Below are positions 35,361 through 36,728 of a stretch of 64,000 nt of DNA, one piece after another. The stretch is from Micromonospora saelicesensis (GTDB lineage Bacteria; Actinomycetota; Actinomycetes; Mycobacteriales; Micromonosporaceae). The notes beneath the pieces were generated by a model. The model was not told the origin of the DNA, searched no databases, and saw only the letters and a list, made by a program, of their open reading frames with translations. A program made the position numbers and the translations under genes. Numbering within the stretch: position 1 is the first letter of the stretch; every line of letters begins with the position of its first letter. The stretch lies in assembly GCF_900091575.1 (NCBI RefSeq), contig NZ_FMCR01000006.1, positions 62,001 to 126,000 of the forward strand, written 5' to 3'.

Positions 35361-35449
35361 GGCACCCCTGTTACCCCGACCGCACCCCCGGCACGCGATC
35401 TTCGCCCCGCATCTTGGGACGACAGGACGGGTGACCGCGTCCGGTCGGG

Positions 35450-35455
35450 TACGCT
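35450..35455 (+). promoter_or_regulatory. -10-like element for the aromatic leader
   Basis: tacgct at 35450-35455 fits an actinobacterial -10 and would place the transcription start at about 35461-35463, on or next to the leader's GTG at 35462, meaning a leaderless leader peptide. No convincing -35 box is seen. Confidence 0.4.
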
Positions 35456-35461
35456 GGCCCG

Positions 35462-35521
35462 GTGACGCGTTCCTATCGATGGTTTAGGCAGCCGGCTCGC
35501 ACGCCGGTGACTTCACCATGA
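35462..35521 (+). CDS. 19-aa leader peptide with Tyr-Arg-Trp-Phe
   Basis: GTG 35462 opens MTRSYRWFRQPARTPVTSP and stops at TGA 35519-35521, ahead of the DAHP synthase gene. Tyr, Trp and Phe, the three end products of the pathway, fall within four codons (35474-35485). Such clustering is how ribosome-mediated attenuation reads scarcity of charged tRNAs, as in trp and phe leaders. The following RNA has alternative stems and a terminator. Role inferred from position and codon content. Confidence 0.65.
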   Translation: MTRSYRWFRQPARTPVTSP

Positions 35522-35597
35522 ACTGACGTCACCACGGACCGAGCCGGCTGGGCAGGAGCTGTCGTTCCTGCCCTTTTGCGTACGAGCAGCCGGCTCG
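35489..35597 (+). promoter_or_regulatory. Attenuator-like RNA structures before DAHP synthase
   Basis: An 11-mer cagccggctcg occurs at 35489-35499 and again at 35587-35597. Its exact complement lies between them at 35540-35550, so two mutually exclusive 11-bp stems are possible. A smaller stem (ggtgac 35506-35511 with gtcacc 35528-35533) sits inside the first. Next, gggcagga (35550-35557) pairs with tcctgccc (35566-35573) and is followed by tttt, a classic intrinsic terminator. A ribosome paused at the Tyr/Trp/Phe codons would cover the first 11-mer. Confidence 0.6.
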
Positions 35598-35642
35598 TCC
35601 CGGGCACCGGCCCCGGGCACGGTCGGCGGAAGGATGCCCACC

Positions 35643-36728
35643 GTGACGACCCCGGAGACCGATCGGGTCAGCGATCAGCGGATCGACCGTGTCGTGCCGC
35701 TGACCACGCCCGCCCTGCTGCACCACGAGTTGCCCCTGGACGCCCCGCTCGCGTCGGCCGTGTTGACCGGCCGCCGCGCGGTCGGTCGCGTGCTGGACCG
35801 CGAGGACGACCGCCTGCTGGTGGTGGTCGGTCCCTGCTCGGTGCATGACCCGGCCGCCGCCCTGGACTACGCGCAGCGTCTTCGGACGGCAGCCGACCGG
35901 CTCGCCGACGACCTGCTGATCGTCATGCGGGTCTACTTCGAGAAGCCGCGCTCCACCGTCGGTTGGAAGGGCCTGATCAACGACCCCGGCCTGGACGGCA
36001 GCGGGGACGTCAACACCGGTCTGCGGCTGGCCCGGGCGTTGCTGCTCGACGTGCTCCGCCTCGGCCTGCCGGTGGGTTGCGAGTTCCTCGACCCGATCAC
36101 CCCGCAGTACATCGCGGACACGGTGGCCTGGGGCGCGATCGGTGCCCGCACCGTGGAGAGCCAGGTGCACCGTCAGCTCGCCTCCGGCCTGTCCATGCCG
36201 ATCGGCATGAAGAACCGCCCGGACGGCAGCATCGGCACGGCCGTGGACGCGATCCGCGCCGCCGGTGTGCCGCACGTCTTCCCCGGCATCGACTTCTCCG
36301 GCACTCCGGCGATCATGCACACCCGGGGCAACACCGACGGGCACCTGGTGTTGCGCGGTGGGGGCGGCCGACCCAACTACGACGCCGAGTCGGTCGCCGG
36401 GGCACTCGACCTGCTCCGCGCCGCCGACCTGCCGGAGCGGCTGGTGATCGACGCCAGTCACGCCAACAGCGGCAAGGACCACCGCAACCAGCCGCTGGTC
36501 GCCGCGGACGTGGCCGCTCAACTGGCCGCCGGCCAGCGTGGGATCACCGGCGTGATGCTGGAGTCGTTCCTGCTGCCCGGCCGGCAGGAGCTCGACCCGA
36601 CCCGGGAGCTGGAGTACGGCCGGTCGGTCACCGACGCCTGCCTGGGCTGGGACGACACCGCCGAGGTGCTCGACCACCTCGCCTCGGCCGTGCGGGCCCG
36701 TCGGGCCACGCTGCCGACGACGGTGTGA
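35643..36728 (+). CDS. aroG: 3-deoxy-7-phosphoheptulonate synthase, class I
   Basis: 361-aa DAHP synthase that joins phosphoenolpyruvate and erythrose 4-phosphate, the first step of the shikimate pathway to Phe, Tyr and Trp. Class I motifs: VVVGPCSVHDP, MRVYFEKPRSTVGWKGLIND, and KNRPDGSIGTAVDAI; metal ligands include the Cys of GPCS and His in SHANSGKDHRNQP. GTG 35643 lies 9 nt after GGAAGG, better than ATG 35634, which abuts the site. Which aromatic acid feeds back on it cannot be read here; control by the leader is inferred. Confidence 0.95.
   Translation: MTTPETDRVSDQRIDRVVPLTTPALLHHELPLDAPLASAVLTGRRAVGRVLDREDDRLLVVVGPCSVHDPAAALDYAQRLRTAADRLADDLLIVMRVYFEKPRSTVGWKGLINDPGLDGSGDVNTGLRLARALLLDVLRLGLPVGCEFLDPITPQYIADTVAWGAIGARTVESQVHRQLASGLSMPIGMKNRPDGSIGTAVDAIRAAGVPHVFPGIDFSGTPAIMHTRGNTDGHLVLRGGGGRPNYDAESVAGALDLLRAADLPERLVIDASHANSGKDHRNQPLVAADVAAQLAAGQRGITGVMLESFLLPGRQELDPTRELEYGRSVTDACLGWDDTAEVLDHLASAVRARRATLPTTV

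Follow-up and report, generated by a model that had tools for sequence, protein, structure and literature searches.

Comparative sequence analysis indicated that the type I DAHP synthase gene of the window (the whole 64-kb stretch of Micromonospora DNA that was analysed) is probably controlled by a ribosome-position sensor of the aroR type. The sensor is well supported, and we infer from the sequence that a ribosome stalls on it and in which direction this stalling acts. The leader that would form the sensor is widely conserved in many actinobacteria, as judged from their upstream DNA. DAHP synthase is the entry step for phenylalanine, tyrosine and tryptophan, and also for the aromatic units from which many natural products of actinobacteria are built, and its control would therefore be useful in producer strains.

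Table 1. Features of the synthase gene and of its upstream region, with positions in the window
Feature	Position	Strand	Basis or remark
-10 element TACGCT, probable leaderless-type promoter	35450..35455	+	ends 6 nt before the leader start codon
Leader ORF, VTRSYRWFRQPARTPVTSP and stop	35462..35521	+	open frame read directly; codon-position bias in relatives
Control stretch TAT CGA TGG TTT AGG (Tyr-Arg-Trp-Phe-Arg)	35474..35488	+	uncommon synonyms flanking the single Trp codon
Strand 1, first copy of the 11-mer CAGCCGGCTCG	35489..35499	+	35490-35499 pairs with 35540-35549 (folds)
Inner stem GGTGAC:GTCACC within the 1:2 helix	35506..35533	+	fold; 73.5% paired in alignment
Strand 2, CGAGCCGGCTG, complement of strands 1 and 3	35540..35550	+	folds, duplex energies, alignment
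Intrinsic-terminator hairpin (10 bp, 4-nt loop) and T run	35550..35577	+	folds, terminator scan
Strand 3, CAGCCGGCTCG repeated downstream of the terminator	35587..35597	+	folds allow pairing with strand 2, enclosing the terminator
GGTCGGC, weak candidate strand 4, flush on Shine-Dalgarno GGAAGG (35628-35633)	35621..35633	+	read in the letters
Type I DAHP synthase gene (aroF/G/H family)	35643..36728	+	TIGR00034 467.5 bits, PF00793

Aromatic leader upstream of the synthase gene

The synthase had its best named match in Micromonospora sp. BL4 (98% identical), and GTG 35643, which is preceded by GGAAGG, was taken as its likely start, since many relatives lack the ATG at 35634. Upstream of the gene, an open frame of 19 codons and a stop was read directly in the letters from GTG 35462 to TGA 35519-35521, in which TAT (35474), CGA, TGG (35480) and TTT (35483) follow one another. 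This bears out the frame described in an earlier sequence-only reading, with Tyr, Trp and Phe within four codons, and the aromatic leader upstream of DAHP synthase that was proposed there is supported. Two different frames meet a stop codon within CCATGAACTGA (35519-35526). Among relatives, a shift by one base downstream of PA switches the leader between these stops, so that the end of the peptide is not conserved in frame.

Since TACGCT ends 6 nt before GTG 35462, the transcript is probably leaderless, and transcription is predicted to start at or next to this GTG. In the set of 171 leaders described below, the TAnnnT nearest to a 6.5-nt gap ended 5-8 nt before the start codon in 171/171 cases and 6-7 nt before it in 165/171; a box close to the start codon earned one point in the leader scorer, and its exact spacing earned none. 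No sigma-70 consensus promoter was detected by a simple scan, and the leaderless -10 element rests on the comparison with relatives. No Rfam riboswitch, T-box or leader family reached its gathering score in the region, where three weak matches were far below the cut-offs, and a tRNA elsewhere in the window was the only match.

Upstream DNA of type I DAHP synthase genes was sampled at 201 loci, consisting of 23 of 80 named loci and of genomes from searches of relatives, the family, the class and a second family. In the class sample, for which five candidates were scored per genome, 89 of 393 genomes matched this type I enzyme, two of them weakly. A leader was called in 171 of the 201 upstream regions by a scoring rule for short aromatic ORFs that required at least two aromatic codons within six together with PA, AP, AL or SA; this rule preselects aromatic codons and these pairs, so that the leader counts are biased, and many loci are close kin. 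The scorer fired in three of 904 other windows of this sequence. Tyr, Trp and Phe codons were all present in 157 of the 171 leaders, Phe and Tyr in 13 (12 of these from family f32, of the YPYF-, YRYF- or YSYF-type) and Trp and Tyr in one. The earlier proposal that a single peptide reads all three end products is borne out as far as codon content goes. Conservation of the leader codons and stems in relatives, the check suggested in the same reading, was found both in these leader counts and in the retained pairing of strands 1:2 and 2:3.

Representative leaders are VTRSYRWFRQPA in Micromonospora, MQRAYFWFSRPARGG in Rhodococcus, VRAYWRFIVAPGGA in Mycobacterium colombiense, VNRWYWRYEPAPGGA in one Streptomyces and VKRSYWRFFEWPAL in Kribbella. 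Among the 30 loci missed by the scorer, 15 belonged to family f29, in which 15/15 examined loci failed and the upstream DNA differs in appearance; in six of the 30 (L012, L179, L186, L214, L216, L240) the leader was recognisable by eye. One Actinoplanes-type leader (L165, at 396) contains two copies of the aromatic block (VSRWYSWLPTYSWFEWPAF..), which looks like a duplication.

Within the genus, the core TATNNNTGGTTTANNNNGCCGGC was present in 61/61 genomes (backwards control, 0), once in 60 genomes and three times in G013, and 63/63 core places were located 134-171 nt upstream of the synthase match on the same strand. In G013 (contigs C1, C18), two of the three copies share a small contig with fragments of DAHP synthase, and the triple core may represent either a duplication or an assembly artefact.

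In 53 Micromonospora-type leaders, changes at positions 1, 2 and 3 of codons 2-11 numbered 1, 5 and 48, respectively, each of 530, and this variation mainly at third positions indicates that the leader is translated. Exceptions to the third-position drift were TAT (53/53), TTT (53/53), CGA (51/53) and AGG (48/53). In synthase genes of the same genus (n = 30), CGA and AGG accounted for 23 and 2 of 895 Arg codons, TAT for 0 of 150 Tyr codons and TTT for 1 of 142 Phe codons. Over all leaders, the ratio UAU:UAC (TAT:TAC) was 187:6, compared with 1:334 in synthase genes, and UUU:UUC (TTT:TTC) was 181:26, compared with 2:380.

In E. coli, the choice of control codons has been explained by selective charging of isoacceptors (PMC1183508). 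Among the 66 tRNA matches in the present genome, tRNA-Phe (GAA) is represented by a single gene and tRNA-Tyr by two (both GTA), and with one anticodon for each amino acid selective isoacceptor charging cannot explain the choice of Phe and Tyr codons here. It is possible that the rare U-ending codons are read more slowly by wobble. A reading of these codons purely in terms of codon usage was weakened by the Phe codons themselves, since the earlier Phe codons were TTC in 23 and TTT in 13 cases, the last Phe codon was TTT in 166 and TTC in 2, and the base 3' of the last Phe codon was A in 138/169 leaders. Part of the constraint may therefore act on nucleotides. The last aromatic codon was located three codons ahead of a PA/AP-type pair in 146/169 leaders. 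A tRNA array of 17 genes in about 1.8 kb was also observed in the source genome (contig C10, 449000-451100, L289); it includes Trp and Tyr tRNAs and further copies of common tRNAs.

Complementary strands and the terminator

The 11-mer that had been noted twice with its exact complement in between is present as strands 1, 3 and 2 of Table 1. Strand 1 started 0-5 nt after the last aromatic codon in 53/56 representatives. The helix of strands 1 and 2 exceeded shuffled sequences with a median z of -4.2 (59 representatives) and was paired in 86.1% of cells of alignment A1 (42 Micromonosporaceae), with a change on both sides in 3/10 pairs. This alignment comprises 42 of 43 sequences selected from 91 for diversity, L165 with its duplicated block being left out. 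Its whole structure beat shuffles in percent paired, changed cells and covariation score, though not in the number of pair types, and the covariation score of 0.130 was nearly equalled by a +1 slide (0.129). The gap between the end of the 1:2 helix and the terminator was 0, 1, 2 and 3 nt in 35, 15, 4 and 2 of 56 representatives, respectively. Within the inner stem of this helix lie the stop of the leader and, in a different frame, a further TGA (35524).

For the duplex energies of strands 1:2 and 2:3, 18 of 152 loci were left out because a U-tract hairpin between strands 2 and 3 was absent or miscalled, and the remaining 134 were reduced to 59 representatives; 56 were used for the tests of terminator arms, strands 3:4 and spacing, of which 53 gave a 3:4 value. 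Within the limits that kinship sets on all strand 2:3 figures, the duplex was better than the dinucleotide-shuffle mean in 58/59 representatives (Wilcoxon p 2.6e-11), with a median z of -2.0 and z below -2 in 30/59. In 42/59 (p 4.9e-6), strand 3 paired better with its own strand 2 than with those of other lineages; the other 17/59 were no better with their own strand, which counts against the proposed control. In alignment A1, 84.9% of the 2:3 cells were paired, compared with at most 43.2% when slid; two pairs changed on both sides, which is as many as shuffling gives, and the covariation score of 0.067 was reached by 0/500 shuffles, but a one-column (+1) slide gave 0.072. Strand 3 began 11-20 nt after the terminator in 48/56. 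When the window leader was folded in full, as far as the gene start, 2:3 was preferred at equilibrium even without masking, so that 1:2 would have to win by forming first.

The terminator-type hairpin with a T run that the sequence-only reading had pointed out was confirmed at 35550-35573, followed by TTTT, and was the only terminator-like site in a scan of 35380-35660, where shuffles averaged 0.1. Its helix was poorly aligned in A1 (57.2% of cells paired). The puzzle raised in that reading, namely that the terminator overlaps the paired 11-mers by at most one base, proved to be genuine: G35550 is the single base common to the 11-mer complement and the terminator stem, and the arms have no conserved alternative partner. 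Five comparisons of the terminator arms with leader and downstream RNA gave median z values of 0.00 to 0.53, with at most 6/56 below -2, and no conserved antiterminator pairing with either arm was found upstream or downstream.

Strand 1 was masked as by a stalled ribosome at 136 loci (16 of 152 were left out), and terminator probability exceeded 0.5 in 131 of them; in the leader of the window, the terminator formed in every masked fold, at each masking point tried. Exposure of the Shine-Dalgarno sequence on masking went up in 27 and down in 17 of the 136 loci, with no consistent change of the kind expected if stalling relieved its sequestration. Neither classical output thus follows from simple folding. 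A strong 3:4 hairpin at the ribosome-binding site was rejected, the pairing being weak (median z -0.71, below -2 in 7/53).

Predicted mode of control and alternative explanations

In the proposed mechanism, transcription would start at or next to the GTG, and a ribosome would load directly on the leader and cross the short run of rare codons for Tyr, Arg, Trp, Phe and Arg. A shortage of Phe-, Trp- or possibly Tyr-tRNA would stall the ribosome with its leading edge over strand 1. From the size of the ribosome footprint, a ribosome stalled at Trp or Phe should overlap strand 1 in part, and one stalled at Tyr should extend no further than about 35487, a position just before strand 1, and Tyr may therefore not be sensed. 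With charged tRNA present, the ribosome would move on, strand 1 would pair with strand 2, and the helix would close flush on the terminator. Because 1:2 would form only after passage of the ribosome, this helix would be the signal of charged aromatic tRNA, and it is expected to go with termination and low enzyme. With strand 1 covered, strand 2 would be free and, in readthrough transcripts, would pair with strand 3 around the terminator. The persistence of the terminator under masking and the absence of strand 3 in a relative resembling Corynebacterium glutamicum count against this mechanism, as do the inconsistent exposure of the Shine-Dalgarno sequence, the equilibrium preference for 2:3 and the 2:3 covariation score that a slide matches.

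As to the output of the sensor, our preferred guess is that the 1:2 helix stacks on the terminator and strengthens it, and that strand 3 acts after readthrough, on translation or stability. An attenuator of stacked helices, in which the flush 1:2 helix would strengthen the terminator by stacking or by its position, with no strand being excluded, readthrough RNA would be subject to a second decision and the rare synonyms would form the sensor stretch, is put forward tentatively, as one possibility. The second decision is suggested by the position of the only alternative partner found for strand 2, which lies beyond the terminator. A leader in which no competitor strand was found makes it testable whether a flush upstream helix sets terminator efficiency, and also whether rare codons read by wobble sharpen tRNA sensing with a single isoacceptor.

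Translational attenuation of the ermC kind appears rather doubtful. Here, covering of strand 1 would allow 2:3 to form, strand 3 would leave the ribosome-binding site and aroG would be translated, with the terminator acting as a separate constant brake or pause. The retained 2:3 pairing agrees with such a scheme, as do the Rhodococcus, Nocardia and Amycolatopsis types, in which no T run directly follows the hairpin (T-run-less loci L006, L008, L009, L013, L014, L018, L025, L028, L199-L202, L206), strands 2 and 3 make, by eye, one hairpin CGAGCCGG-n-CCGGCTCG, and in several cases the second half of strand 1 (GGGTCGGTC-like) is copied beside the Shine-Dalgarno sequence, again by eye. However, the exposure of the Shine-Dalgarno sequence shifted inconsistently, strand 3 pairs weakly downstream, and the C. 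glutamicum-like relative has no strand 3.

Attenuation of the classical trp/his/phe type, by which a stalled ribosome lets an antiterminator take one terminator arm, is unlikely. The leader peptide with control codons and the intrinsic terminator before the gene are both present, and aroF operon transcription in C. glutamicum is reported to go up under Phe limitation (PMC11802643), but the terminator arms lack a conserved partner, none of the tested pairings sequesters either arm, and the terminator survives masking, in the Corynebacterium-like relative too. The ribosome-mediated attenuation proposed in the sequence-only reading was therefore not supported, for the pairings tested, in its classical antiterminator form. 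A further alternative, in which the ORF would be incidental and the repeats would be either operators in the DNA or GC-rich palindromes arisen by chance, is very improbable: AGCCGGCT is palindromic, which makes pairing of its copies partly automatic in GC-rich DNA, but the codon-position bias, the 1:2 and 2:3 pairs of which some have changed on both sides, the strand sequences changing together between lineages in 42 of 59 representatives and the narrow spacing to codons and terminator all argue against it.

Comparison with known systems

An aroR leader/attenuator upstream of aroF in C. glutamicum was reportedly described by Neshat et al. in 2014. The C. glutamicum aroF leader contains Phe-Tyr-Phe, and attenuator transcripts were detected in this organism, with aroF among the sites (PMC4046766). 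According to a review, transcription of the aroF operon is enhanced under Phe limitation, and Tyr availability has no effect (PMC11802643). Both aroR and the Micromonospora leader are short aromatic leaders directly upstream of a DAHP synthase gene, and the features of the aroR type were found here, that is, clustered aromatic codons before a type I DAHP synthase and a helix joining the strand just after these codons to the strand just before the terminator. The two differ in their codons, which are Phe-Tyr-Phe without Trp in aroR and Tyr-Arg-Trp-Phe in Micromonospora.

One genome of 201 searched (locus L309) has an aroF start that agrees with that of C. glutamicum at all but 3 of 27 bases and is presumably a Corynebacterium. 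Its leader MFAARFYFMTGSGASPRKLAINCAS, which begins MFAARFYFMTGSGA.., encodes Phe-Tyr-Phe and is followed by a 1:2 helix and by a terminator with six T (U-tract) that also survives masking. As in Micromonospora, the strand after the codons pairs with a strand just before the terminator, whereas the strand 3 that follows the terminator in Micromonospora was not found there (strand 2 against downstream RNA, z +1.3). In L239, which belongs to the same genus group, a GC-rich stretch is retained downstream of the terminator. Because this relative has the Phe-Tyr-Phe of aroR, the Micromonospora leader would be a three-amino-acid version of the aroR kind.

In translational attenuators of the ermC type, one strand has two alternative partners, and a stalled ribosome makes the choice. 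A general statement on such attenuators is available (PMC13236596). The Micromonospora leader likewise has one strand with two alternative partners; it differs in that the terminator lies between strands 2 and 3 and that release of the Shine-Dalgarno sequence is not predicted.

The uORFC-13-1 motif upstream of aroF in Acholeplasma also combines a Phe-coding uORF and a terminator before a DAHP synthase gene (PMC8632094). It belongs to an unrelated lineage, an RBS is described for it, its U run codes for at least one Phe, and the portion of the description cited here mentions no strands like 1, 2 and 3 (PMC8632094). The trpE leaders of Streptomyces and Corynebacterium are further actinobacterial cases of a leader peptide with control codons and a terminator, and that of S. 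lividans is leaderless (PMC1262725; PMC8079986), as is probable for the Micromonospora leader. They differ in having Trp codons only and in an antiterminator and terminator that share complementary triples (PMC1262725; PMC8079986), for which no counterpart was found in the aromatic leader. The 2005 study, in the part cited, saw no conserved structures before phenylalanine or tyrosine operons (PMC1262725). Among the open-literature matches listed, no description of an aroR-kind leader outside Corynebacterium was found, which is a limited statement. The aroR kind is known before aroF in Corynebacterium, and the variation presented by the Micromonospora leader consists of three amino acids and of a strand 3 beyond the terminator.
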